DNA of 41,509 bases from Candidatus Igneacidithiobacillus taupoensis (GTDB taxonomy: Bacteria; Pseudomonadota; Gammaproteobacteria; Acidithiobacillales; Acidithiobacillaceae): the NCBI GenBank assembly GCA_021375695.1, contig JAEPKX010000012.1, forward strand, positions 1 to 41,509. The letters are read 5' to 3'. Made by a program: the position numbers and the translations under genes. Under the pieces are notes generated by a model. The model searched no databases, was not told the DNA's origin, and was given only the letters and a program-made list of their open reading frames with translations. Each line of letters begins with the position of its first letter. The first letter of the stretch is position 1. Shown here piece after piece: positions 3,189-24,005 of the stretch.

Positions 3189-4580
3189 TTAGAGGGAATA
3201 ACGCTCACCAATGACCGGGGTATGGTATGGCAAGGCTCTTTGGCGAAGAACGGCTGCGATTCCCTCTCGTCCCCGATCTTCACCATGTACCAGAAAAGTC
3301 AAGGCGGGTCGTTGCTCCGCGCCATACCAGCGCAGCAGTTCGTCATGATCGGCATGGGCGGAAAAGCCGCCAATGGTAAAGATCCTGGCGCGCACCTGGA
3401 TTTCCTCGCCAAAAATTCGCACGGTTTTGGCACCGTCGATGATCCGGCGGGCGAGCGTCCCTTGGGCAGCATAGCCCACAAAGATCACGCTGCTATCGGC
3501 GCGCCAAAGGTTGTGTTTGAGGTGGTGGGTGACTCGACCGCCGCTGGCCATGCCCGATCCCGCCAGGATAATCGCACCACCCTGTATCTGATTGATTTGC
3601 ATCGATTCGCTTGTTTCCCGAGTGAAATGCAGGTTGGGGAGAGCAAAGGGATCTATCCCTTGCTGAAACAGTGCGACGCTTTCTAGATTCATGCATTCTC
3701 GATGGCGACGAAAGATTTCTGTGGCAGAAATGGCCATGGGGGAATCCAGAAAGACCGGAAGATGCCTGGGGAGTTCCTCTTTTTCGATCATCTCCCGAAA
3801 AAAGTAGAGGAGATCCTGGGCCCGTTCCAAAGCAAAGGTCGGAATGATGGCATTTCCCCCGCGTTGGAGGGTGTCTAGAAGCGCATCCCGCAGTTCCTCT
3901 ACAGAAGGCCCAAGAGGCTTGTGCAGCCGGTCACCGTAGGTGCATTCCATGAGGATCATATCGGCTTTGGGGGCGGGTCGTGGATCTTTGACGATGGGTT
4001 TGTTGCCGTTGCCAAGATCACCGGAAAAGAGCAAACGCTTGCGGATAGGTCCTTCCTGGGCCTCCAGGAGGATCCAGGCCGAGCCCAGGATGTGGCCGGC
4101 ATCGTCAAAGGTCGCCTGGATGCCCTCGCAAAGTTCCAGGGCCTGGCCATAATCGGGCAGGCGACCAAAACGTTCCATGGTATCCAGAACGTCCTGGATG
4201 TCGTAAAGAGCCTCCTTTTCTTCTTCCCCTTGCCGCTTGCTGCGACGGTTGGCCCGTCGTGCCTCTTCGGCGGCCAGGCCGGCGGCATCCAAAAGGACTA
4301 GTCGCGTCAGGTCCCGGGTGGCAGCGGTGCAAAGGATTTCCCCCCGGAATCCGCGCTTGACAAGGAGAGGGATGCGCCCGCAATGATCCAGGTGGGCATG
4401 GGTCAGGAGGAGAAAATCGATGGCTGCCGGATCAAACCCAAACGCAGCAGCGTTTTCTCTGGCAATATCTCCCTCTCCCTGGAACAGTCCACAATCAATC
4501 AGGATCTGTCGCTTGCCAATCTGCAGATGATGGCACGACCCGGTTACGCCGCCGGCGGCACCATGAAAGGAGATTTCCAT
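3189..4580 (-). CDS. Metallo-beta-lactamase/beta-CASP RNA-processing nuclease-like protein
   Basis: A 463-residue protein of the MBL-fold RMMBL/beta-CASP family (CPSF73-like, YSH1/COG1236 type), expected to be a zinc-dependent endo- or exoribonuclease in the cytoplasm. The zinc motif HAHLDH is at residues 61-66. A later ligand lies in DDAGHILGSA and another in FSGDLGN. The beta-CASP part carries IIPTFALERAQDLL and ILAGSGMASGGRV, and the C-terminal RMMBL motif is GGFSAHADHDELL. Start ATG 4580 has GGAGG 7 nt upstream. It lies 30 bp upstream of the glgA stop on the same strand as glgA but downstream of it, so the two are probably co-transcribed with no obvious functional link. The exact RNA substrate is unknown. 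Confidence 0.9.
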   Translation of the reverse strand: MEISFHGAAGGVTGSCHHLQIGKRQILIDCGLFQGEGDIARENAAAFGFDPAAIDFLLLTHAHLDHCGRIPLLVKRGFRGEILCTAATRDLTRLVLLDAAGLAAEEARRANRRSKRQGEEEKEALYDIQDVLDTMERFGRLPDYGQALELCEGIQATFDDAGHILGSAWILLEAQEGPIRKRLLFSGDLGNGNKPIVKDPRPAPKADMILMECTYGDRLHKPLGPSVEELRDALLDTLQRGGNAIIPTFALERAQDLLYFFREMIEKEELPRHLPVFLDSPMAISATEIFRRHRECMNLESVALFQQGIDPFALPNLHFTRETSESMQINQIQGGAIILAGSGMASGGRVTHHLKHNLWRADSSVIFVGYAAQGTLARRIIDGAKTVRIFGEEIQVRARIFTIGGFSAHADHDELLRWYGAEQRPALTFLVHGEDRGREGIAAVLRQRALPYHTPVIGERYSL

Positions 4581-4610
4581 ATCGTTCCTCCGTCTTGTAG
4601 ACTTTCATGA

Positions 4611-6050
4611 TCATGCCCCCGAGAGCAGATGCCGGTAAAGGGATTGGTATTCCAAAGCCGCCCGTTGCCAACTATGATTTTCTTGCATGGCGATGGTCTG
4701 GGCCGCTTGCCATTGCCAATTCTCCGTATGAAATACCCGTTCAGCCCGGGCAATGGTCTGCGCCAGGGCTTCTTGGCTGGCGGGTCGAAAGACAAAGCCA
4801 TTACCTCGTTGATCCTGATGGAGATCGCGCACCGTGTCGGCAAGTCCACCGGTGCCATGGACAATGGGCAAGCTACCATAGCGCAGACTGTACATTTGGT
4901 TGAGGCCGCAAGGCTCAAAGCGGGAAGGCATGAGAAAGGCATCGATGCCCGCCTCGATGCGGTGCGCCAAGCCTTCGTCAAAACCAATGCGCACGGCCAT
5001 TTTTCCTGGATATTGCCAAGCGAGGCGCTGGGCTTGCTCCTGCAGGGCCAGGTCCCCTGTCCCCAACAGAACCAGCTGGATGGGATGTTCCATGAGTTGG
5101 GGAACCAGGGCCAAAACAAGATCTGCCCCTTTTTGCTCTACCATCCGACTTACCATACCCAGCAGCAGTGTCTGGGGGTCGGGAATCAGACCCATTTCCG
5201 TTTGCAAGGCAATCTTGCATTGGGTCTTACCTTGCCGGTTATGGGCGGTAAAGTGGGCGGGTAAATAGGGGTCGGCGGCTGGATTCCAGCGCGTCACGTC
5301 GATTCCATTGAGAATACCATATAAATCCTGTTGCCGGCTCCGGAGAAGTCCGCCCAAACCCATACCCAGGTCCTCCTCCTGAATTTCCCGGGCATAGCTG
5401 GGACTGACGGTACTGAGGGCATCGGCAAAAACCAGCCCGGCCTTGAGAAAGGAAAAACTTCCATACAGCTCCACCCCGCCAGGATGGAAATCCTCTTTGG
5501 GGAGATGGAGGATATCCAGGAGCTCCGGAGCAAAGCGCCCCTGATAGGCCAGATTATGGATGCTGAGCAGGGTTTTTGGGCGCGGGGCGCCAATTCGGCT
5601 TTCCAACGCCAATAGATAGGGGGCAAGACCTGCCTGCCAGTCATGGGCATGGAGAAGATCCGCTCGCCAGTCCAGAAAGGGCAGGCGTCCCTGACAGAGT
5701 TCCACTGCCACCCGATTGACATAGGCAAAGCGTTCTGGATTGTCTTCCCAGTCCTGCCCCGCAGCGTTCTGATAGATGCCACCCCGTTCATAGTATTCCG
5801 GCTGGCGCAGAAAATAGATGCTATCGTCTGTACCCAGTGACCAAATTTCGCCGAGACGCTTGGTATAGGGGGGATGTACGGTCCCCAGCAAGCGCAGCTC
5901 GCTGCGCTTGGGATATCCATAATAGGGCAACAGTACGCGAACATCGATTCCCAAGGAGCGCAGGCTGCCGGGCAAGGCCGCAATCACATCTCCAAGACCT
6001 CCCGTTTTGGAGAACGGGGCCATCTCTGACGCTAGAAAAAGAACACGCAC
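4611..6050 (-). CDS. glgA: Glycogen synthase (ADP-glucose type, GT5)
   Basis: Transfers glucose from ADP-glucose to the growing alpha-1,4-glucan in glycogen synthesis. The N-terminal ADP-glucose loop KTGGLGDV is at residues 15-22. The GT-B C-terminal half carries PSRFEPCGLNQMYSLRYG with the E-X7-type nucleotide-sugar motif, followed by GTGGLADTV. I place the start at GTG 6050 (MRVLFLASEMAPFSKTGG), giving 479 residues, because it aligns with the E. coli start and has GGAG at 6057-6060, 6 nt upstream. The alternative TTG at 6062 would consume that Shine-Dalgarno. glgB and glgC are not nearby. It diverges from the KDO-transferase-like half gene. Confidence 0.93.
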   Translation of the reverse strand: MRVLFLASEMAPFSKTGGLGDVIAALPGSLRSLGIDVRVLLPYYGYPKRSELRLLGTVHPPYTKRLGEIWSLGTDDSIYFLRQPEYYERGGIYQNAAGQDWEDNPERFAYVNRVAVELCQGRLPFLDWRADLLHAHDWQAGLAPYLLALESRIGAPRPKTLLSIHNLAYQGRFAPELLDILHLPKEDFHPGGVELYGSFSFLKAGLVFADALSTVSPSYAREIQEEDLGMGLGGLLRSRQQDLYGILNGIDVTRWNPAADPYLPAHFTAHNRQGKTQCKIALQTEMGLIPDPQTLLLGMVSRMVEQKGADLVLALVPQLMEHPIQLVLLGTGDLALQEQAQRLAWQYPGKMAVRIGFDEGLAHRIEAGIDAFLMPSRFEPCGLNQMYSLRYGSLPIVHGTGGLADTVRDLHQDQRGNGFVFRPASQEALAQTIARAERVFHTENWQWQAAQTIAMQENHSWQRAALEYQSLYRHLLSGA

Positions 6051-6116
6051 ACGAGGCTCCAAGGGAATGCATGGATGGCATAAAATACCACAAATCGACG
6101 GGGTTTCGTTTTTGAT

Positions 6117-6138
6117 GGTTTTGAAAGTTCGAAAACCC
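6117..6138. promoter_or_regulatory. Imperfect inverted repeat overlapping a -35 box, candidate operator
   Basis: GGTTTT-GAA-AG-TTCGAAAACC forms a near-perfect hairpin or dyad with one bulged base between glgA and the divergent gene at 6182. It covers the -35 box (6121-6126) of the plus-strand promoter, so a bound dimeric repressor could block that promoter. Only sequence symmetry supports this. Confidence 0.3.
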
Positions 6139-6149
6139 TAGCTTAGTAT
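6121..6149 (+). promoter_or_regulatory. Sigma70-type promoter for the gene at 6182
   Basis: TTGAAA (6121-6126), a 17-bp spacer and TAGTAT (6144-6149). Start of transcription would be near 6156, about 26 nt before the GTG start. Confidence 0.6.
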
Positions 6150-6181
6150 GGGCGCCAGGGGAATCCATCAGGGGTGAACGA

Positions 6182-6757
6182 GTGGAAATCTGTGAACGCT
6201 TCAAAGAATTTCGGGATCGCCAGCGTTGCGTCGTCTATTTTCCCAATACCCATGCCAACGAGGAGCCCGAGGCCTACGCTACCTTCCTGGCCCTGATGCG
6301 CTTGCAAATGGGGATTATGATTCTAGCGCCCGATCAGGAAGAGCGCTTCGAACCCGTCTATCGGGATGCCTTGAAATACCATTTACAAACCATTCGGCAT
6401 AGTCGGCTGTTTACCAGTTTCGTACCCATCAAGTCGCGGGTGTATTTCGTGGAAACCATTGCCGTGCGCGATGCCTTTTACCCATGCGCAGATTTTTGTG
6501 TTCCAGGGGGAACCTTGGCAGGTGGCAGTGTCGATCTGGAAAGTCCCATCCGGGCAGGCTGTCCTATCCTTTTTGGTCCCAAAGCCCCCAAAACATCCGA
6601 TTGTGAGGGGCTGCTGGCGGCAGGCGGTGCCCGTCGTGCCAACACCCTGGAGGAATTGGCAAAGATGGGTGCCGACTGGCTAAAAGAACCCGAGGCCGCC
6701 AAAGAATGCGCTCGTCGAGCCCAAAACTGGTGGCAATCCCAGGGACGAAGCCTCTAG
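6182..6757 (+). CDS. Stand-alone C-terminal domain of a KDO-transferase-like (WaaA) glycosyltransferase
   Basis: A 191-residue protein equivalent to only the nucleotide-sugar-binding second half of WaaA/KdtA (about 425 residues). The order of motifs fits that family: PNTHANEE (family: S/T-HxGEE), LAPDQEERF (RHPERF), SRVYFVET (VLLGDT), FYPCADFCVPGGTLAGG (YAAADVAFVGGSL), then LESPIRAGCPILFGP (LEPAA.GKPVLFGP). The membrane anchor and acceptor-binding N-half are absent. The region upstream of GTG 6182 has its own promoter and ribosome site (AGGGG), so this is not a cut-off gene read by accident. It may be a regulator, a partner of another glycosyltransferase, or a relic; no catalytic function should be assumed. 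Confidence 0.65.
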   Translation: MEICERFKEFRDRQRCVVYFPNTHANEEPEAYATFLALMRLQMGIMILAPDQEERFEPVYRDALKYHLQTIRHSRLFTSFVPIKSRVYFVETIAVRDAFYPCADFCVPGGTLAGGSVDLESPIRAGCPILFGPKAPKTSDCEGLLAAGGARRANTLEELAKMGADWLKEPEAAKECARRAQNWWQSQGRSL

Positions 6758-6766
6758 TTGCAAAAG

Positions 6767-7306
6767 TCAGGAATCGGAATGGATGAGGGGGGTGACTTTG
6801 CCAGGAGACGATTGGTGGACCAGGCGGAATGGGTAGAGGGACTCATAGAAGTTATCCATGGGTGCACCCTGGGTATCAAAACCCGTTACCATGATCATTC
6901 CCTGTTTGGCATAGACGTAGACATGGCAAGCCCTCTGGGCCGCCTGACCGGGTGCCGGACCCATCTGGAAGGGAAGTGTGGCAGGACCACATCCGGAGGG
7001 AACTCCTTCTTGGTTCCAGTGCGCAAGAAATTTTTTGGCAAGGATATCCAGTTCTGGTCCTGCACCGACCCATAGGGCCCGATGCTGGTCCCAGGACTTC
7101 TCCAGTTCTGCGCGTTGTGTGGATCCCGCAAAGGGGAGCCATTGTTGTTCTTGTAGTGCAAGAGTTCCCAGCGCCACGGTTAAATTGTTGCGCACCGTCG
7201 ACTGGGCCTGGATGGTGGTCCAGCTCAACCACGCCGCCCAGGCACCATAGAGGAAAATCAGGAATAACAGGACACCCCAGAACCAGTGCCGCTGCTGATG
7301 GCTCAT
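6767..7306 (-). CDS. Hypothetical membrane-anchored protein
   Basis: A 179-residue protein with one N-terminal transmembrane helix (about residues 8-29) and a soluble, presumably periplasmic remainder with two cysteines (around CGPATLP and RACHVYVY) that could form a disulfide. I do not recognise the family. The start overlaps the DUF3579 gene stop as ATGA (7303-7306), pointing to translational coupling and a shared operon with DUF502, galU and DUF3579. It ends 9 bp from the convergent gene ending at 6757, with no terminator visible between them. Confidence 0.7.
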   Translation of the reverse strand: MSHQQRHWFWGVLLFLIFLYGAWAAWLSWTTIQAQSTVRNNLTVALGTLALQEQQWLPFAGSTQRAELEKSWDQHRALWVGAGPELDILAKKFLAHWNQEGVPSGCGPATLPFQMGPAPGQAAQRACHVYVYAKQGMIMVTGFDTQGAPMDNFYESLYPFRLVHQSSPGKVTPLIHSDS

Positions 7307-7638
7307 CGCGAGCTCCGCCGCGAGTCAACCTTGGGAGCTTCGGCATTGCTGGCAGCCCGGCGTTCTGCCAGCGTTCCCGGCTCATAGTGGATGACCAGGC
7401 GGTTTTCCTTGGCAAAGTGGAGGATCTCGGCGTAGGCTTCGGGTCGGATTTGTTCCAGTGCCTCATCCATGATGATGGCAGCGTTCCCATTGATAGTGGC
7501 TGGTTCAATCATGGGCAGATAGTGAATCTTGTGATCACTACCAAAATGGGCAAGGCCAACTCCCTCGATGAGCATTTCAGCCCAGGCGGAAGGCCGGAAC
7601 TTCCCTCCCTTTTCATTGATTCCTTCAATGATGATCAT
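7303..7638 (-). CDS. DUF3579 family protein
   Basis: A 111-residue cytoplasmic protein matching the DUF3579 pattern: IIIEGI.E.GKKFRPS.WAE near the N-end, a HYLPMIEP strand, and a central DEALEQIRPEAYAEILHFAKEN helix. Function of the family is unknown. The C-terminal 20 residues are Arg/Ser/Ala-rich and probably disordered. It follows galU by 69 bp and overlaps the next gene by ATGA. Confidence 0.75.
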   Translation of the reverse strand: MIIIEGINEKGGKFRPSAWAEMLIEGVGLAHFGSDHKIHYLPMIEPATINGNAAIIMDEALEQIRPEAYAEILHFAKENRLVIHYEPGTLAERRAASNAEAPKVDSRRSSR

Positions 7639-7707
7639 GGCGCCCCCTCAAGCAATGGCGGGCCATAGGATACCCCAAGTCGGGTCTGGGGGAAAAAGTC
7701 GGGCAGC

Positions 7708-8595
7708 TCATCCCGATACTTCCAGGGTCTTGCAGTACGCCTGCAAATATTCGCCAAAAGCGGCGCCTACTTCCGGATGCTGCAAGGCAAAGGCAATGGT
7801 GGCTTGCAGGTATCCCAATTTGTCGCCGCAGTCATAACGCTGGCCCTGGAAGCGGTAGGCAAGCACCTGTCGCTCCCCGAGGAGTTTGGCAATGGCATCG
7901 GTCAGTTGAATCTCGCCACCGGCCCCTTGGGCGGTATGTTCCAGGAAATGGAAAATCCGGGCGGGCAGGATGTAGCGGCCGACCACGCCAAGATTGGATG
8001 GCGCGTCGACTGGTTGGGGTTTCTCCACAATGCGACTGACCTGGAAAATCGACTCATCCCAGGGCCTCGCCTCGACGACGCCATAGCGGGTGCTATGCTC
8101 CAGCGGAATTTCCTCCACGCCCAGGATTCCTGCTTGATAGCGACGATGTTGCTCGACCATTTGGGAGAGGACGGGTTGGCTGGCAAGCATGAGATCATCA
8201 GCGAGGAGCACGGCAAAGGGCTCGTCTCCCACCACCGGGCGGGCCATGAGGACAGCGTGACCCAACCCCAGGGGATAGGGTTGACGCAGATGGATGACAC
8301 TCACATGACTGGGGACAATGGCGCGGACTTGCTCCAGGAGGGCCTTTTTCCCCTTTTTCTCCAGTTCAACCTCCAGTTCGTAGGAAACATCGAAATGATC
8401 CGCAATGGCCCGTTTGCCCCGGCCTGTGATGAAAATCAATTGATCGCAGCCCGCCGCAATGGCCTCCTCGACGGCATACTGGATGAGTGGCTTGTCCACG
8501 ATGGGCAGCATTTCCTTGGGACTGGCTTTGGTTGCGGGTAAAAAGCGGGTTCCCAGACCGGCAACGGGAAAAACGGCCTTACGAACTCGATCCAT
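7708..8595 (-). CDS. galU: UTP-glucose-1-phosphate uridylyltransferase
   Basis: Makes UDP-glucose from UTP and glucose-1-phosphate for LPS, capsule and other glycans. Residues 4-30 contain [27 protein letters not shown], the nucleotide-binding signature; LLADDLM carries the metal-binding Asp; VEKP follows in the sugar-binding half. Length 295 residues is normal for the family. Start ATG 8595 (MDRVRKAVF) overlaps the upstream DUF502 gene by 17 bp; the open frame continues upstream to 8793 but that extension is only a shadow of DUF502. Confidence 0.95.
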
Positions 8596-9298
8596 CGGAC
8601 GGCTCCTTGTTGGGAAAGGGAAGGGTTTCGCTTTGCTCATGGGGGGCTTCATCGGCCAGAGGGCGGTCGCGACTGGGGCGATTACTACCCACGCCTCCCG
8701 CCATGGCAAAGCGGAGGGCTTGTTGTGGGGTGAGATCGGGCAAGGGCACGACTTGGTGCCGGGGGACAATACAGGTAAAGCCGCCAACGCCATAGCTCAT
8801 GGGGATAAAAACCGCAACGCAGTCTTCCTCACCGATGCTGGCAAGTTCGGGTAAACTATCCCGGGTGATCAGTCCTACCAGATAGCCCATCCCATCACTC
8901 TGGCGCAAGAGGACTGCGCTGCGAAACCCTCGTTCTTTGCCACCAAAGAGGAGTTCCACGGTTTCCTGGATGGTACTATAAAGACTATGAAGTACCGGAA
9001 TACGCTCAAGGAAGCCATTGATGCGGTCAAAGATCCAGGCGGTAAGGACATGGGAAGCCAGGAACCCCACGGCAAAGATGGTGATCAGAGTGAGAATGAT
9101 CCCAAGACCTGGAATATCGACGCCAAAGAGGACGTGGATGGGGGCCGCAAAAATTCCATCCACCCACCCCCCTACCAGGAGGACCACATAGATGGTCAAG
9201 CCGATGGGGAGAGAAATCAATAGTCCCTGGATGAACCAGCGCTGGGGATGCCATCGTCGCTGGATGCTTTCTTTGGGATTGGGCAAGGGTAGCATCAT
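8579..9298 (-). CDS. DUF502 family membrane protein
   Basis: A 239-residue inner-membrane protein. Two hydrophobic helices lie at about residues 22-46 and 62-88, followed by the DUF502 core [20 protein letters not shown] and FRSAVLLRQ, then [20 protein letters not shown]. The last 40 residues are polar and probably disordered. Function is unknown; homologues often sit near aminoacyl-tRNA synthetase or nucleotide-sugar genes. Its end overlaps galU, so the two are likely one transcript. Confidence 0.85.
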
Positions 9299-9362
9299 GC
9301 AGTTCGCAACTCGCGGCCAAATTCTCGCGAGGCAGTATAACCGTTTGTCATGGTTGATTTCA

Positions 9363-10754
9363 TCAAGACTTGTCGTCAGCGTCCGAGTCTTTGAAGGAGC
9401 TCGGTGTTAGTTGATATTTGTGCATGAGCTTGTAGAGGTCAGTGCGGTGACGACCGGCAATCCGTGCAGCCCGGGAAATATTGCCATCGGTACTACGTAA
9501 CAAACGTTCCAGATATTGCCGCTCAAAATGGGCCTTGGCTTCCTGGAGAGGTGGAAAGGCTCCCCAGGCCTGGTTCCGACTGGCATCGGGAATGCTGGCA
9601 GCCTGGATCCAACCGCTTTCGGTGAGGGCCACGGCCAGCGTCACCGCATTTTCCAGTTCGCGAACATTACCGGGCCATGGTCGGCGCAACAATTTGTCCA
9701 AAGCATCGGGACTGAAACCAGGCAGATCCCGTCCGAGCCGGCTTGCCTCCCGATCAAGAAAATGTTGGGCCAGGAGCAGGATATCCTCGGGCCGTTCGGC
9801 AAGGCTTGGCACCCGCAGAGGAATGACATGCAATCGGTAGTAGAGATCCTCGCGGAATTTTCCCTGGGCCAGCAGTTGATGGATATCTCGATGGGTGGCG
9901 CTGATGATACGCAGATCCACCGGGTATTCCATGGTTCCTCCCACGGGCCGGACCTTACCCTCTTGCAAGACCCGCAGGAGCTTGACCTGGAGCGGCAAGG
10001 GGAGATCAGCAATTTCATCCAGGAAGAGTGTTCCGCCATGGGCACTTCGCAGGAGACCCGGCTGGTCACATTGGGCACCGGTAAAGGCCCCTTTGACATG
10101 ACCAAAGAGCTCACTTTCGGCAAGATCTGGCGGAATGGCGCCACAATTAATGGCCAGGAAGGGGCCTTGGCAGCGGGGACTGGCCGCATGAATGGCGCGC
10201 GCCACCCGCTCTTTGCCAGAGCCGCTTTCGCCCGATAAGAAAATACTGGCTTGGGTCGGCGCTACCTGGGCAACGTCGTCCATGAGTCGAGCCATACTTT
10301 CGCTGCGATACAACAAGTCCTGGTTCGCCTGACGGCGGACGGTTTCCCGAAGCAGACGGGTTTCCTGTCCAGCCTGCCGTTGTTCGATGGCTGCTTGGAC
10401 GAGATCCTGCAATTCTTCATGCCGAAAGGGTTTGGCCAGGTAACCAAAGGCATTGGCGCGCATGGCGGCGACGGCATTGGGGATGCTCCCATGGGCGGTC
10501 AGGAGGATGACGGGGAGATCCCGGTCCAGTTCCTGGGCGGCGGCCAGCACATCCATTCCGTCGGGGCCGGGCATACGCAGATCGCTGATGATCAGATCGG
10601 GTAGTTGCTCTTGGAGGGACTGGAGGGCCGCAGCAGAATCGCCAAAACTTGTCAGCCAATATCCCTCGCTTTCCAGCCAAAGGCCCAACAGGCGTCGAAA
10701 ATCTGCATCATCATCAATCAAGAGAATCCGGATCGGGCTTTCTTCCAATTTCAT
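9363..10754 (-). CDS. glrR: Sigma54-dependent response regulator GlrR/QseF-like
   Basis: An NtrC-type activator of 463 residues. The receiver domain (about 8-122) has the acidic pocket DDD at 14-16 and phosphoacceptor Asp58 (ISDLRMPG). The AAA+ domain has Walker A GESGSGKE and the sigma54-contacting GAFTGA loop. A C-terminal Fis-type helix-turn-helix includes GNISRAARIAGRHRTDLYKLMHKY. Start ATG 10754 is the first codon after the qseG overlap (ATGA); the open frame upstream is a shadow. The order sensor kinase, small lipoprotein, regulator matches glrK-qseG-glrR of enterobacteria, which I use for the name. It should activate sigma54 promoters such as the one at 12803. Confidence 0.88.
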   Translation of the reverse strand: MKLEESPIRILLIDDDADFRRLLGLWLESEGYWLTSFGDSAAALQSLQEQLPDLIISDLRMPGPDGMDVLAAAQELDRDLPVILLTAHGSIPNAVAAMRANAFGYLAKPFRHEELQDLVQAAIEQRQAGQETRLLRETVRRQANQDLLYRSESMARLMDDVAQVAPTQASIFLSGESGSGKERVARAIHAASPRCQGPFLAINCGAIPPDLAESELFGHVKGAFTGAQCDQPGLLRSAHGGTLFLDEIADLPLPLQVKLLRVLQEGKVRPVGGTMEYPVDLRIISATHRDIHQLLAQGKFREDLYYRLHVIPLRVPSLAERPEDILLLAQHFLDREASRLGRDLPGFSPDALDKLLRRPWPGNVRELENAVTLAVALTESGWIQAASIPDASRNQAWGAFPPLQEAKAHFERQYLERLLRSTDGNISRAARIAGRHRTDLYKLMHKYQLTPSSFKDSDADDKS

Positions 10755-16749: not shown

Positions 16750-18461
16750 CCTTTGAACTGGCGGGGATTGGGGCAGCTCCAGGCATAGCCATTGCTACAG
16801 CAGTGGTTCTAGAGCCTACCAGGATGGAGATTCCCGAATATGGAATCTCCCCTGCGGAAGTAGAGCGGGAAGAAAATCGTTTACGGCTGGCCCTGGCCCT
16901 GGCCCGGGAGGAATTGCTGCGGGTCCGCGAGGCCATCCCCAAGGATGCGCCGCAGGATACCCGTCTGTTCATCGATGCGCATCTCCTCATGCTGGACGAT
17001 CCTGCTTTGCGGGAGCGTCCCTTGCGCATGATTCGCGAGCAGGGGCGTAATGCCGCCTGGGCCTTGCATCAGGAGCGCGAACGCCTGGCCGAAATCTTCC
17101 AGCGCATGGAGGATCCCTATCTGCGGGCCAAGCGGGAGGATGTTTTGCAAGTCACCGACCGCGTGTTGCGCCATCTGCTGGGGGCGGGAGCACCCAACCT
17201 GGCGGCTGCCGAGCGCATCATCGTTGCCAATGAACTCAGTCCCGCCGATACCGTCTTGCTCAAAAACGGCTCGGTACTGGGTTGGGTGACAGATTTTGGA
17301 GCGGCTACTTCCCATTCGGCGATCCTGGCCCGGAGCCTCGGTCTGCCAGCGGTGGTGGGGACGCATCTGGCAACTCGCCTGTTGCGCAGTGGGGATCAAC
17401 TGGTGGTTGACGGTGATCAGGGTACGGTATTGGTCAACCCAGACCCTGCCCTATTGGAGGAATATCGCCGTGCCCAAGAGCGGCGTCAGCGGCGATTGCA
17501 ACTGCTGGAGGAAGAGCGCGATTTGCCAGCTGTTACCCGCGATGGAACGGCTGTTCGATTATTGGCCAACATCGAGCTACCCGAGGATCTGGAGTGGGTG
17601 CAGCGCAGCAGTGCCGAAGGCATTGGTCTTTTTCGTAGTGAGTTCCTGTTTATGAACCGGGCCGATAGCCCCAGTGAAGAGGAACAATATCAAGCATTTG
17701 CCAGAGTTCTGGAAGGCTTGTCTGGAGCCGAAGTCACTATTCGCACAGTGGATGTGGGGGCAGACAAACTGCTTGCCGATAGCGATCTGCAGTTGCACCC
17801 AGGCGGTCTGAATCCGGCCCTGGGCTTGCGGGGACTGCGTCTTTGCCTGCGGCGTCCGGATTGGTTTCGGCGCCATCTACGGGCCTTGTTACGGGCCTCC
17901 GCTCTGGCCCCCGTGCGCATCATGTTACCCATGGTCAGTACCGTTGCCGAAGTAGTCCAGGCACGGCAAATGATTCATCAGTTGCGGCAGGAGTTGCAGG
18001 CCGAGGGCCATGCTGTGGCCAGGGATCTCCCCATCGGCATCATGGTGGAGGTCCCGGCGGTGGCCATGGCCGCCCATTGTTTCACCAAGGTGGCGGATTT
18101 TTTCTCCATCGGCACCAACGATCTTACCCAATATGCCCTGGCTGTGGACCGGGGAGACGACGATGTCATGGCGCTCTTTGATCCCCTCCACGTGGGGGTA
18201 CTGTCCATGATTCAGCATACCATTGCGGCAGGCCATGCCGCTGGTATACCGGTGACCATGTGTGGGGAAATGGCTGCCAATCCCAGGTGGACCCCCTTGC
18301 TCCTGGGTCTGGGACTTCGAGAATTCAGCATGTTTCCAGGTGCCATTCCGGAAGTCAAAGCTTCCATCCGTCGTTGTGAATTGAAGGAGGCCAACGCCTT
18401 GGCCCTCCATGCCCTCATGGGAGACGGATCCCTCCTGATGGAGCCCAGTGACCAGGGCTAG
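16746..18461 (+). CDS. ptsI: Phosphoenolpyruvate-protein phosphotransferase (enzyme I)
   Basis: Transfers phosphate from phosphoenolpyruvate to HPr. GTG start at 16746 overlaps the ptsH stop (GTGA), giving 571 residues, the usual length. The HPr-binding helical domain leads to the swivelling His domain with GAATSHSAILARSLGLPAVVG (active His190). The TIM-barrel C-domain carries GIGLFRSEFLFMNR, LPMVSTVAEV, GIMVEVPA and FSIGTNDLTQYALAVDR, then the Cys region TMCGEMAANP. All catalytic parts appear intact. Its end overlaps the AsmA-like gene by 14 bp. Confidence 0.96.
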   Translation: MTFELAGIGAAPGIAIATAVVLEPTRMEIPEYGISPAEVEREENRLRLALALAREELLRVREAIPKDAPQDTRLFIDAHLLMLDDPALRERPLRMIREQGRNAAWALHQERERLAEIFQRMEDPYLRAKREDVLQVTDRVLRHLLGAGAPNLAAAERIIVANELSPADTVLLKNGSVLGWVTDFGAATSHSAILARSLGLPAVVGTHLATRLLRSGDQLVVDGDQGTVLVNPDPALLEEYRRAQERRQRRLQLLEEERDLPAVTRDGTAVRLLANIELPEDLEWVQRSSAEGIGLFRSEFLFMNRADSPSEEEQYQAFARVLEGLSGAEVTIRTVDVGADKLLADSDLQLHPGGLNPALGLRGLRLCLRRPDWFRRHLRALLRASALAPVRIMLPMVSTVAEVVQARQMIHQLRQELQAEGHAVARDLPIGIMVEVPAVAMAAHCFTKVADFFSIGTNDLTQYALAVDRGDDDVMALFDPLHVGVLSMIQHTIAAGHAAGIPVTMCGEMAANPRWTPLLLGLGLREFSMFPGAIPEVKASIRRCELKEANALALHALMGDGSLLMEPSDQG

Positions 18462-19620
18462 TACGAAAAGCCAGTGGTGGATCGGGCCTGGCCTTGGGGG
18501 ACTGTTCCTGCTCTTCCTGGGTGCTTTGCTGCTGTCCGGATTGCCTCGGCTGCTGCTCGTAGGAATCCTGAGCAAAGAATTGGGACAACCGGTGCAGTTG
18601 CAGCATCTCCACTGGCGAGTGCAGAGCAAGGGCCTGGACCTTCGCTTGCAAGGACTTCGTATCGGGCAGAAGTTCTTGCGCGTGCAGCAAGCCAGCATCT
18701 TTTGGCACTGGAGTGATCTCTGGCAGTGCCATTGGCTTGCTGCCAAAGTGGACATTCAGCAAGCGTACCTGGAAGGTCCCTGGCCAGGAAGTGGTTCGGC
18801 CAGTAGTGGCGGGATTCCGCCATTGCCTAGGGTGCTGGAGTGCTCTGGCTGTTCGGTGCAATGGCCCATTGCCCATGGGCAGCTCCAGCTTCGAGATCTA
18901 CGGATATCCTATCAAAGTGGGCTTGGACTCCAATTGCACGGGCAATTTCGGTATGGAAGACATGCCGGGGCACTACTCCTTGCTTATGGGGCACCTAAGG
19001 TGTATCGGCCTGGAATGTTGCACGTGCAGGTAGAGGGCCAGGGCGAAAGCGCCCAAATTACCATGACTGCTATCAAGTCCCTTTCTGCGACTCAAGTGCA
19101 AGTATCAGAAATAGTTGGCAATATCCACTGGCAGGGAAGCCAGATCAAACTGCACGCCCAAGATTTCCACGCGCTCCATACCGGTTCTGGATGGCAGGTG
19201 GCAACCCATTGGCAATTGTACATCAGCCCTTTGCTACCCCTGCTGCAGAGGATCGCTGGAGAGCTACCGCAAAACTTGCCCCGTGCTGCTGAAATTTCCG
19301 GAGAAGGACGCTGGCAGCAAAATGGATCCCTGACCTTGACCGGGCTGAGAGCCCGTCTGGGAAAAACGGACTTGCAAGGGGAAATTCACTATCAGCCGAC
19401 CCATGATCTATGGCAAATCCAGGCAGAAATCCCCCGTTTGTATCTCAGCGATTGGCTACCAGTGTCGGCCAGGGGCGTCGTTGCCCCACCAGCAGCCATC
19501 CCATTGCCTGCCCTGCCCAGGACCTGGCCGCCTATCCGGGCAAATATCCACATTGGGGAATTACGTTGGCAGAACTGGCAAGCCAGGAACGTGCACATCC
19601 GGTGGCGAGGAAAAGATTGA
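18448..19620 (+). CDS. AsmA-like inner-membrane-anchored protein
   Basis: A 390-residue protein with an N-terminal signal anchor (about 12-37) and a long periplasmic beta-rich part, typical for AsmA/TamB-like proteins thought to move lipids between the membranes. Repeated LRLQGLRIG-, LQLRDLRISY- and LTLTGLRARLGKTDLQGEIHY-type strands support this. It is shorter than E. coli AsmA (617). Start GTG 18448 has GGAG 4 nt upstream. The order AsmA-like, mutY, yggX is common in gammaproteobacteria and supports the call. The stop overlaps the mutY TTG start. Confidence 0.75.
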   Translation: MTRASTKSQWWIGPGLGGLFLLFLGALLLSGLPRLLLVGILSKELGQPVQLQHLHWRVQSKGLDLRLQGLRIGQKFLRVQQASIFWHWSDLWQCHWLAAKVDIQQAYLEGPWPGSGSASSGGIPPLPRVLECSGCSVQWPIAHGQLQLRDLRISYQSGLGLQLHGQFRYGRHAGALLLAYGAPKVYRPGMLHVQVEGQGESAQITMTAIKSLSATQVQVSEIVGNIHWQGSQIKLHAQDFHALHTGSGWQVATHWQLYISPLLPLLQRIAGELPQNLPRAAEISGEGRWQQNGSLTLTGLRARLGKTDLQGEIHYQPTHDLWQIQAEIPRLYLSDWLPVSARGVVAPPAAIPLPALPRTWPPIRANIHIGELRWQNWQARNVHIRWRGKD

Positions 19621-21042: not shown

Positions 21043-21351
21043 AATTCCCAGGGTGCGGGATGGTTATTTGGGGCTTCCAATATTTCGTATATCCCCTGCA
21101 TCCCTGTTTATTCAGGTGCTTAGCATCATAAGGCCAATTGTAAACTCCATACTTGATAAATACCATTGCTTTTGCAGCTATCCTGCTTTCGGGAAAGAGC
21201 GACAGGCAGCAGCAAAGAATACGCAAGAAATTATTGTAACTAATTGAAAATAAATAATAATACTATTTGGCATGAGAATTGCTGATCAGATGCTGCTGAT
21301 GGTTCAGCCCGCTATATGCGGAACCTTATCTCTTGGAAGGAGTGTCCTTGT
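21043..21351. other. AT-rich intergenic region upstream of the acid-shock-like gene
   Basis: About 310 bases with no supported gene. The part 21227-21268 is strikingly AT-rich (TTATTGTAAC..., then a run of AAT repeats) and has several overlapping poor -10/-35 matches such as TTGTAA (21234-21239) with TAATAC (21258-21263), 18 bp apart. I would expect the promoter of the gene at 21352 here, but cannot fix it. A Shine-Dalgarno (GGAAGGAG) lies near 21335-21342. Confidence 0.5.
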
Positions 21352-21585
21352 ATGAAGATGATCGTTGCGATTACGGCTGCCTTGTCTTTTCTGACTGCCA
21401 GTGCTGCTTTTGCAGCTGAAGAAGCCCCCGCCGCTGGTGCTGATGAGATGGCGAAGCCTGCCATGGAGAAGCACGAGGTTAAGAAGCATCACGTAAGCAA
21501 GCACCATGTCAAGAAGCATCACGAGATGAAGAAGCAGGAACCCATGAAGGCTGCTGAACCCGCTGCTCCGGCTGCTGCCGAGTAA
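21352..21585 (+). CDS. Small exported His/Lys-rich protein, acid-shock (Asr)-like
   Basis: A 77-residue secreted protein. Signal peptide 1-21 (MKMIVAITAALSF..., cleavage after AFA). The mature part is Ala/Glu/Pro-rich at both ends and carries three short basic repeats in the middle (HEVKKHH, VSKHH, VKKHHEMKK; residues 41-61). This layout closely resembles E. coli Asr, a periplasmic acid-shock protein with Lys/His/Ala repeats. ATG 21352 was chosen over 21316 because it opens on the signal peptide. It is monocistronic with its own strong terminator. Such low-complexity sequence could also arise independently, so homology is not proven. Confidence 0.65.
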   Translation: MKMIVAITAALSFLTASAAFAAEEAPAAGADEMAKPAMEKHEVKKHHVSKHHVKKHHEMKKQEPMKAAEPAAPAAAE

Positions 21586-21607
21586 AGAAGCGGCTTTTGC
21601 GTATCAA

Positions 21608-21637
21608 GGCCGGGAGGGATCTCCTCCCGGCCTTTTT
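21608..21637 (+). terminator. Rho-independent terminator
   Basis: A perfect 10-bp stem GGCCGGGAGG / CCTCCCGGCC (21608-21617, 21623-21632), 5-base loop, then TTTTT. It ends the acid-shock-like gene. Confidence 0.9.
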
Positions 21638-21671: not shown

Positions 21672-23372
21672 TTAGACCTGCTTCCAGGAATGCAGGAAGG
21701 TGCTGGCAAAACGAATCGCAAAGCGCAGGACGTATTGGGTATCTTTGGCAAAGAAAATTTTGATCAAACCAAAAATTCCGCCGCCTTTGTTGCTTTTATT
21801 TTTCATTTCGATCTGGGTCTGGGCCAAGGCCTTGCCAACCTTGTCAACGCCACTGGCAAAGGCGGCATCGCTGGGCAACAAGGGGAGAAGTTTATCCAGG
21901 GCCATATTGAGCTTGGGCAGGACGCCGGCTTTCTGGATTTTGGCGACCATGGCCAGGGCATCGGGCAGCATATCCATCAAATTGGCCTGGTGCAGGCCCT
22001 TGACGAGTTCTTTCACACGGGTGGTGAGGTCTGGGGCATTGCCTTTCAGTGCCGCAGCACCAAGTTGGGCGATTTCCATCCAGGCAAGGGCACCCTGGCT
22101 GAGTTGGGCACCAATGTTCTTGATGGTGCCATCCCGCCACAATTCACCCAGAAAATCCGTGACGGTACAGACCCCAATACTGAGATCTCCACGGGGAGAA
22201 AGGATATCGCTCAGGTAGATTCCCTGTCGCTCGAGATTGCAAGCTAAGTTGCGCAGCGTCTCGGCAACGGTCTCGGCGTGATCCAGAAGTCCATTGATTT
22301 GATCCGCCAGATCACCGGTTTTACTGTCACCCAGGGCAATTCTTTTGGCTCGGTTGGCGATTTTTAACCATTTCTCGGCTTCCTCGGCAAGCTGATCGAG
22401 CTTGTCGGGAAGGTCCATCTCGGTCACGATTTGTTGGACAGCTGCCAGACCATCCTTGCCGGCCTGGAGGTAAAAGCCAAGACCGTTGGCTGTCATGGCG
22501 AGTTTTTCCACCTGATCCAGCAGGGCTTCGACGCGGCTTGCCAGATCGCTCTCGTTGCCTTGGGCCAGTGCCCGGACCCGCATGATGATGTGCAACCAAC
22601 GTCTGCTGGCCTGGCTCACCGTGCCCATGGCCGTGCTAAGATCGCTGCCGCGCAGGAGTTCCGGGGCAGTGTCCTTGAGGGTGCCCAGGGCAACACTCAT
22701 CTCTCCCCCCAGGATTTCTGCCATATCCAGGAGGCTTTCCAGTCGCGCTTTGACACTGGGGGCATCGCCCTGCAAGAGTTTTTGGGTCCGTTTGGCGATC
22801 TGCAGCCACTGGTCGGCCATTTCCTGCAGTTCATCCAGGCGGTCGGGGAGATCCAGCTCCACCGCCAGATTGCCCAGTACGCCAACGCCCTGTTTGGCAC
22901 TGGACCAATAATATTTCACGTTGGCAGTGGCTTCACGAAGTTTTTGCACCAGTTGCTCGGGATTTTGCCCCACCAGCTCTGGCAGTTCCCCACTCAAGGT
23001 TGCCAGGGCTTGGAAGAAACCAGCTTTTTGGAGATTGTTCAGGATGGTTAGCAGCTCGCCGATGGTTTTGTCCAGTTGGGCATCCTTGACCTCGTTGAAG
23101 AAGCCTTTGAGGCGTTCGAGGCCACCTTCACTGCTGATCAGTCCTTGCAGGGACTCGACGGTTTCGCGCAGGGCGTCAAGCTGCGGCTGATATTTGGCCA
23201 GCAGTTTTTCGGTATCTATGGCATTGGGTAGCTCATTGAGTACGTCGCGGAACATTTGCAAGAGGTTTTGGAGCTGCAAGGCGGCATCTCCGACCTTGCC
23301 AAGTCCTTCCCACTGCTTTGGGGTCAGGATAGTGGTAGCTTCCGCTGACGATACTGCGTTTCCATTGGCCAT
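21672..23372 (-). CDS. Large helical repeat protein with DUF1641-like parts
   Basis: A 566-residue, almost all-helical protein without signal peptide. Four related segments recur: W(L/M)xIAxR...L..GD..DL..RVE.LLD..E at about residues 189-219, 259-289, 335-367 and 431-461. The N-terminal 55-150 (LDALRETVESLQGLI, TIGELLTILNNLQKAGFFQAL) and the C-end (GGIFGLIKIFFAKDTQYVLRFAIRFASTFL) resemble DUF1641, a small family often linked with sulfide:quinone oxidoreductase or formate dehydrogenase; here it would be a greatly expanded form. Start ATG 23372 has GGGAG 8 nt upstream. It is monocistronic and divergent from the DUF1841 gene. Biochemical role unknown; the C-terminal amphipathic helix may touch the membrane. 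Confidence 0.7.
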   Translation of the reverse strand: MANGNAVSSAEATTILTPKQWEGLGKVGDAALQLQNLLQMFRDVLNELPNAIDTEKLLAKYQPQLDALRETVESLQGLISSEGGLERLKGFFNEVKDAQLDKTIGELLTILNNLQKAGFFQALATLSGELPELVGQNPEQLVQKLREATANVKYYWSSAKQGVGVLGNLAVELDLPDRLDELQEMADQWLQIAKRTQKLLQGDAPSVKARLESLLDMAEILGGEMSVALGTLKDTAPELLRGSDLSTAMGTVSQASRRWLHIIMRVRALAQGNESDLASRVEALLDQVEKLAMTANGLGFYLQAGKDGLAAVQQIVTEMDLPDKLDQLAEEAEKWLKIANRAKRIALGDSKTGDLADQINGLLDHAETVAETLRNLACNLERQGIYLSDILSPRGDLSIGVCTVTDFLGELWRDGTIKNIGAQLSQGALAWMEIAQLGAAALKGNAPDLTTRVKELVKGLHQANLMDMLPDALAMVAKIQKAGVLPKLNMALDKLLPLLPSDAAFASGVDKVGKALAQTQIEMKNKSNKGGGIFGLIKIFFAKDTQYVLRFAIRFASTFLHSWKQV

Positions 23373-23395
23373 AAATTTGTCTCCCGCTGAATGAT

Positions 23396-23405
23396 CCTAA
23401 TTAGG
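23396..23405. promoter_or_regulatory. 10-bp palindrome between divergent genes
   Basis: CCTAATTAGG is a perfect palindrome 24 bp upstream of the start of the helical repeat gene, in the leader or promoter region. It could be an operator; nothing else supports this. Confidence 0.2.
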
Positions 23406-23546
23406 GCTTGGTGGACTTGCCAAATGTGCCTTATTTAGCATAACAAGGTGTGATTTTCCAGCTAAACGATGGTTCTCCACTTGGCATCTGCAACTTGTTC
23501 CGGTTTTGTGGAATTGTATCTTGAAAGAAAGTGATGAAAATGGGTA

Positions 23547-24005
23547 ATGAATATGCTTTATGGAAGCAAGAGAGAAACCTATCGACAGATTTTTGTCCAG
23601 GTCTGGCAACGCTATCAACGACAAGAGGCCCTGGATGCCATGGAAAAACGGATGGTTTCGGTGATCCTGGCTCATCCGGAGTATCACCCATTGCTGGAAG
23701 ATCCTGACCTGGCCTTGAGCGCAGATTTCAGCCCAGAGTCTGGACGAAGCAACCCTTTTGCCCACATGGGCTTGCACATTGCCCTGTTGGAACTCTTGGC
23801 GGCAGACCAGCCGCCGGGTATGGTGCAATTGTTCGAGCGGTTGCGATCGAGGTATGACCAGGAAGTCGCAGAACATAGGGTGGTGGAGTGTCTTGGTGCG
23901 TTGCTGTGGCAGGCCCAACGGGAGGGGCGTAGTCCTGATCTGGAGGGACTCTTGCCTTGTCTGCGGCGGAGCTTGGGTTGGGATCCCGAAGGAGAGGGGA
24001 ATTGA
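23547..24005 (+). CDS. DUF1841 family protein
   Basis: A 152-residue cytoplasmic protein of unknown function. Family pattern: (M)LYGSKRETYRQIFVQVWQ at the start, ILAHPEYHPLLED, NPFAHMGLHIALLELLAADQPPG and AEHRVVECLGALLWQAQREG. ATG 23547 or ATG 23553 could start it; the second gives the usual MLYG N-end. Its stop overlaps the TTG start of pepF, suggesting coupling. Confidence 0.85.
   Translation: MNMLYGSKRETYRQIFVQVWQRYQRQEALDAMEKRMVSVILAHPEYHPLLEDPDLALSADFSPESGRSNPFAHMGLHIALLELLAADQPPGMVQLFERLRSRYDQEVAEHRVVECLGALLWQAQREGRSPDLEGLLPCLRRSLGWDPEGEGN

Follow-up and report, generated by a model that had tools for sequence, protein, structure and literature searches.

A question of current interest is how enzymes of sulfur and NADH oxidation that are peripheral and cytoplasmic gain access to the quinone pool; coupling proteins of the DUF1641 type are a recent part of the answer. 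In Bacillus subtilis, the formate dehydrogenase ForC1 depends on the DUF1641 protein ForE1 to bind menaquinone and for its quinone activity, and no transmembrane helices are predicted in the ForC1-ForE1 complex (PMC8808070). In Ignicoccus, DUF1641 genes occur with an FAD oxidoreductase (PMC3149612), and a DUF1641 gene goes with a [NiFe]-hydrogenase operon in Parageobacillus (PMC12976888).

A 41,509-nucleotide stretch of a contig of Candidatus Igneacidithiobacillus taupoensis (hereafter the window) raises the question of what is done by a 566-residue protein in which a helical repeat lies between ends that resemble DUF1641, and whether, as a preliminary description proposed, such a protein could be a scaffold for a membrane oxidoreductase. 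The Acidithiobacillus group, to which this organism belongs, comprises acid-loving oxidizers of sulfur and iron.

A solitary gene conserved throughout one order

The open reading frame that had been reported is present on the minus strand with an ATG start (Table 1), and near-identical-length orthologues in almost all genomes of the Acidithiobacillus order mark it as a real gene. Among 31 genomes of the order, 30 carry an orthologue and the remaining one is 69% complete; most members of the family are 564–568 aa long and 49–77% identical to the window protein. The family is restricted to this order: no orthologue turned up when one genome was searched from each of 26 other families of the class, the only match of the family profile among 398 genomes of the phylum was the window's own genome, and when 84,980 named genomes were scanned for conserved peptide patterns, all matching records bore the name Acidithiobacillus or were unnamed Proteobacteria MAGs. 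Moreover, no Pfam, NCBIfam or PHROG model spans the protein; PHROGs gave no match, and the sub-threshold matches from Pfam and NCBIfam were helical noise, those to DUF4872, ATG17-like, TAF and other Pfam families being rejected as such.

The gene stands alone, as had been proposed: a DUF1841 gene diverges from it, a small ORF converges on it, and the divergent layout with DUF1841 is kept at nearly all loci of the family. Its conserved neighbours (DUF1841, pepF, fumC, aroF and metG) are housekeeping genes, and no quinone-linked enzyme was found beside it in the loci read. In both genomes of a second family of the order, a short form with two repeat units lies just upstream of minC-minD-minE (L040, 9444–13385; L041, 6278–10314), the min genes having been recognized by eye from sequence.

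Two other reading frames in the window were noted. The convergent ORF (21316–21585) encodes an 89-aa Ala/Lys/His-rich product with a signal-peptide-like start that weakly resembles MXKDX-repeat and acid-shock Asr proteins, and its place beside the 566-aa gene is limited to some loci of the same genus. A 390-aa ORF between ptsI and mutY (18448–19620), 24–33% identical in relatives and without an NCBIfam match, overlaps mutY and may be partly spurious.

Table 1. Features of the 566-aa protein gene and its surroundings, in window coordinates
Feature	Position	Strand	Basis
CDS, repeat-expanded DUF1641-related protein, 566 aa	21672..23372	(-)	ORF with ATG start; conserved across the order
N-terminal DUF1641-like motif, residues 14-38 (LTPKQWEGLGKVGDAALQ...)	23259..23333	(-)	Equivalent to LTPEQWAGLARLGD of canonical DUF1641 paralogue
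Helical region, residues 78-135 (QLDKTIGELLTILNNLQKAGFF)	22968..23141	(-)	Matches ADESIVAALRLLRQLQEDGNL, middle of canonical DUF1641
U1 core, residues 176-224, Trp189	22701..22847	(-)	Profile-profile and leave-one-out searches
U2 core, residues 246-293, Trp259	22494..22637	(-)	Profile-profile and leave-one-out searches
U3 core, residues 322-371, Trp335	22260..22409	(-)	Profile-profile and leave-one-out searches
U4 core, residues 418-466, Trp431; most divergent unit	21975..22121	(-)	Profile-profile and leave-one-out searches
C-terminal DUF1641-like motif and basic amphipathic helix, residues 515-566 (NKGGGIFGLIKIFFAKDTQYVLRFAIRFASTFLHSWKQV)	21675..21830	(-)	hhalign, Pfam, PDB
Terminator-like 13-bp stem and T-run, between convergent small ORF and 566-aa gene	21606..21634	.	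Consensus match only
Intergenic region common to 566-aa gene and divergent DUF1841 gene	23373..23546	.	
DUF1841 gene, conserved divergent neighbour (context, outside the system)	23547..24005	(+)	Pfam PF08897, E 7e-48; synteny

Four repeat units in variable number

The four units that had been read by eye are borne out, with their tryptophans at the positions originally given, and share the core W-L-x-IA...QGD...L-x-x-R...LLD, the tryptophan of which is kept in all 76 unit copies examined. Internal periodicity was confirmed by comparing the family profile with itself, where unit pairs scored 37–137 against at most 18 in 40 column shuffles. In leave-one-out searches, the profile of the other three units found each unit at 20–53 bits, compared with at most 13.6 in 2000 shuffles, so that recognition at this level was reached by none of them. 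Among known helical-repeat families of Pfam, only sub-threshold matches to unrelated helical families were obtained over the units.

The number of units differs between genomes and can be two, three or four. In the ~413-aa forms of the second family of the order, Trp259 runs straight into the sequence that follows Trp431, leaving two units, while a 473-aa orthologue (G011, locus L029) has three, U3 having been lost through an in-register deletion from Trp335 to Trp431. As the count changes in register with the tryptophan, the units behave as expected of a modular helical repeat.

Divergent homology to DUF1641 at both ends and in the middle

The genome encodes a separate canonical DUF1641 protein of 283 aa (L032, 9737–10588), with which the 566-aa protein shares, in the same order, the N-terminal motif LTPEQWAGLARLGD, a middle helical region and a C-terminal GG(I/L)xGL motif. 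In hhalign comparisons with canonical DUF1641, residues 14–38 matched the N terminus (score 45, shuffle maximum 20), residues 78–135 the middle (32.1, shuffle maximum 14.3) and residues 515–552 the C terminus (24.6, shuffle maximum 11.1); residues 78–135 also matched residues 448–505 of the protein itself (57.9, shuffle maximum 14.4). The three segments are colinear with the N terminus, middle and C terminus of the 283-aa protein and exceed column-shuffled controls, so homology to known DUF1641 members extends along the protein, and the arrangement first described, with DUF1641-like ends and a repeat expansion between them, holds.

Searches in both directions gave the same result. Among 2651 ORFs, an HMM of canonical Acidithiobacillus DUF1641 proteins found as non-self matches only this family and one genuine DUF1641 protein (L119), which belongs to a different family of the class and whose 19.7 bits fall inside the 15–28 bits of the 566-aa family. 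Conversely, an HMM of the family's N-terminal part retrieved canonical DUF1641 proteins (E 8e-11 to 8e-6) and, outside the family, nothing else, the one further match (L117) being a fragment of the family itself.

Curated membership did not follow. The C-terminal 92 residues had DUF1641 as their sole Pfam match (E 0.09, 13.1 bits) and a 413-aa short-form relative reached 17–18.7 bits, below the gathering cut-off of 21 bits for DUF1641 (PF07849), and the full-length protein is not listed as a match. The profile check thus upheld the relation above shuffled controls and not a place in the Pfam family, for which the best score was 18.7 bits; with homologous ends and yet a score below the cut-off, the protein is a divergent relative and not a filed DUF1641 member. 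At the sequence level, homology of both ends can be considered close to established.

A multiplication of the DUF1641 domain was rejected as the origin of the repeat, because U1–U4 score at background against DUF1641 profiles; the units constitute a new, inserted repeat. The canonical protein further differs in having half the length and no U units, in its operon-like linkage to a flavoprotein and in scoring above the Pfam cut-off. The statement that the protein is five-fold larger than DUF1641 proteins is true only relative to members of ~110–140 aa, as it is just twice the length of the 283-aa protein of the same genome.

Quinone-reducing flavoproteins beside the homologues

At all five loci readable at this position (L120, L121, L123, L125 and L126), the canonical DUF1641 gene is directly downstream of a gene for an SQR-like flavoprotein, and SQR matches, though weak, occur at this position in further genomes. 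In the window's own genome, no orthologue of this flavoprotein partner was found, the contig ending just upstream of the DUF1641 gene. The best solved relative of the flavoprotein is PDB 3h8i/3h8l (E 8e-51), deposited as an NADH oxidase, which we take to be the Acidianus sulfide:quinone reductase. One locus (L121, 7774–10973) has, in succession on the same strand and with gaps of ~60 bp, genes for a sulfur oxygenase/reductase, the SQR-like flavoprotein and canonical DUF1641, which suggests that sulfide from the sulfur oxygenase/reductase is passed to the quinone pool by the flavoprotein together with DUF1641.

A second homologue, a 306-aa paralogue with an intact gene in each of three genomes and a broken one in a fourth (G018), shares with the 566-aa protein the repeat unit and the C-terminal GGIFALIRLVL...YVLR motif, and differs in having two Trp units only, a diverged N terminus and linkage to SQR and cytochrome bd. 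In one genome, its gene (L042, 7545–8465) belongs to a cydA-cydB-SQR-(306-aa paralogue)-DUF308-like cluster (3574–9537), 20 bp downstream of the SQR gene, which itself follows cydA-cydB; an SQR gene is adjacent in the other two genomes with an intact copy as well. Such a cluster would join sulfide oxidation to cytochrome bd.

Homologues of the 566-aa protein are associated with quinone-reducing flavoproteins. The linkage with redox enzymes that the preliminary description named for DUF1641 proteins was found for the homologues (SQR for the one, cydAB-SQR for the other) and not for the 566-aa gene itself; as the enzymes adjoin the homologues and not this gene, we infer the scaffold role from the homologues, and in that form a scaffold for a membrane oxidoreductase is a reasonable proposal.

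Structural features and known coupling proteins

Structure prediction with AlphaFold2 was run twice, with 21 orthologues (pLDDT 34) and with an alignment of 28 rows headed by the short form (pLDDT 40), and neither run gave a usable model; the secondary structure in these low-confidence models is all-helical. No transmembrane-like segment was detected in the protein, there being no 19-residue hydrophobic window above 1.15, and it has no conserved Cys clusters able to bind a redox cofactor, as neither of its two Cys is widely conserved. Several helices are strongly amphipathic, among them a basic C-terminal helix; the last 40 residues have a helical moment of 0.63 and a net charge of +5.

In a search of the PDB with E values up to 10, the C terminus of the window protein matched two entries alone, YjlC (E 0.22) and one deposited as 'NDH-2 membrane coupling protein' (E 0.28), and the profile of canonical Acidithiobacillus DUF1641 placed the same two entries first (E 0.005 and 0.01). 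With the C-terminal family profile, YjlC was the best natural protein; two designed repeat proteins ranked higher and were discounted, as their scores are sums of many stretches each below 6 bits. The whole-family profile retrieved designed coiled coils, unrelated helical proteins and nothing else. The PDB matches are weak when judged by themselves (E 0.2–0.6).

YjlC, a DUF1641 protein of B. subtilis (PDB 9pxk, 9pxl, 9pxm and 9snk), resembles the 566-aa protein in its C-terminal motif (GLFGLLRMLKDPQAQKLFRFA vs. GIFGLIKIFFAKDTQYVLRFA), and the deposited names suggest that it couples YjlD, a type II NADH dehydrogenase, to the membrane. However, its PDB chains have 140–176 aa, the Trp/Gly-Asp repeat was not detected in it, and it was solved along with the NDH-2 YjlD, in contrast to the window gene, an orphan. 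ForE1 and ForE2 of the B. subtilis formate:menaquinone oxidoreductase are likewise DUF1641-related and without predicted transmembrane segment or cofactor; they differ in size (17–21 kDa) and in being an essential subunit of a formate dehydrogenase whose gene lies alongside, and no repeat has been described in them.

A proposed membrane tether and its alternatives

Judged from its sequence, the 566-aa protein is a repeat-expanded relative of the DUF1641 coupling proteins, and its most likely role, with a probability of about one half, is that of a tether between the surface of the inner membrane and a partner, probably a quinone-reducing enzyme. The protein would be soluble, all-helical and cytoplasmic and would work like the DUF1641 'membrane coupling' subunits. 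Its conserved C-terminal GG(I/F)FGL...KDTQYVLRF motif and basic amphipathic helix may rest on the inner face of the membrane, with the DUF1641-like N-terminal and middle helices packing against the C-terminal end, and the four Trp/Gly-Asp units would be an extended helical rod inserted between the DUF1641-like parts. The rod may keep a partner close to or at the membrane, and the likeliest candidate is an oxidoreductase of sulfur or NADH metabolism that is peripheral and reduces quinone. We infer the cytoplasmic location, membrane attachment, rod shape, partner identity and coupling function alike; the main points against the coupling reading are that no quinone-linked enzyme adjoins the gene in the loci read and that the models reach pLDDT 34 and 40, and the sub-cut-off Pfam score and the weak PDB matches also count against it.

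The locus itself also fits a different role, which we consider somewhat unlikely: that the protein is a scaffold or spacer, specific to this lineage, of the membrane surface or the cell pole, in which the DUF1641-like ends have been kept for membrane binding, an oxidoreductase is no longer served and the rod organizes other proteins. The orphan position among conserved non-redox neighbours, the repeat that is not part of DUF1641 and the place just upstream of minC-minD-minE in both second-family genomes are in its favour. Nevertheless, the minCDE neighbourhood occurs only in those two genomes and forms no obvious operon, and the DUF1641-type relatives with context read go with a redox enzyme. 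It is less probable that the protein is a quinone or lipid carrier or shield, whose rod would bring quinone to several enzymes in an apolar groove without a fixed partner. ForC1 needs ForE1 to retain menaquinone (PMC8808070), several helices are strongly amphipathic and the 566-aa family is present in genomes without a canonical DUF1641 protein, but neither model is good enough to show a groove, and the quinone of ForCE has been proposed to lie at the interface with the enzyme, not inside ForE (PMC8808070). A chance resemblance between DUF1641 and an unrelated long helical protein, suggested by the sub-cut-off Pfam score and by the ease with which helical proteins collect weak matches, is very improbable given three colinear segments above column-shuffled controls, an HMM that retrieves only this family and true DUF1641 among 2651 ORFs, and family scores that straddle that of a true DUF1641 of another lineage.

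Implications

Beyond the tether itself, a bolder and doubtful extension is that the protein represents an undescribed class of large adaptors found throughout the order, in which a DUF1641-type coupling unit, split by a variable number of new Trp/Gly-Asp repeats, serves as a membrane-tethered arm that docks a soluble sulfur-oxidizing complex, such as an Hdr-like one, or several quinone reductases. The 566-aa protein is a core gene product of an industrially important order of acidophiles and would provide an enlarged version of a coupling protein with a countable repeat, and since the repeat number varies in nature, both the partner and the role of the repeat are directly testable.
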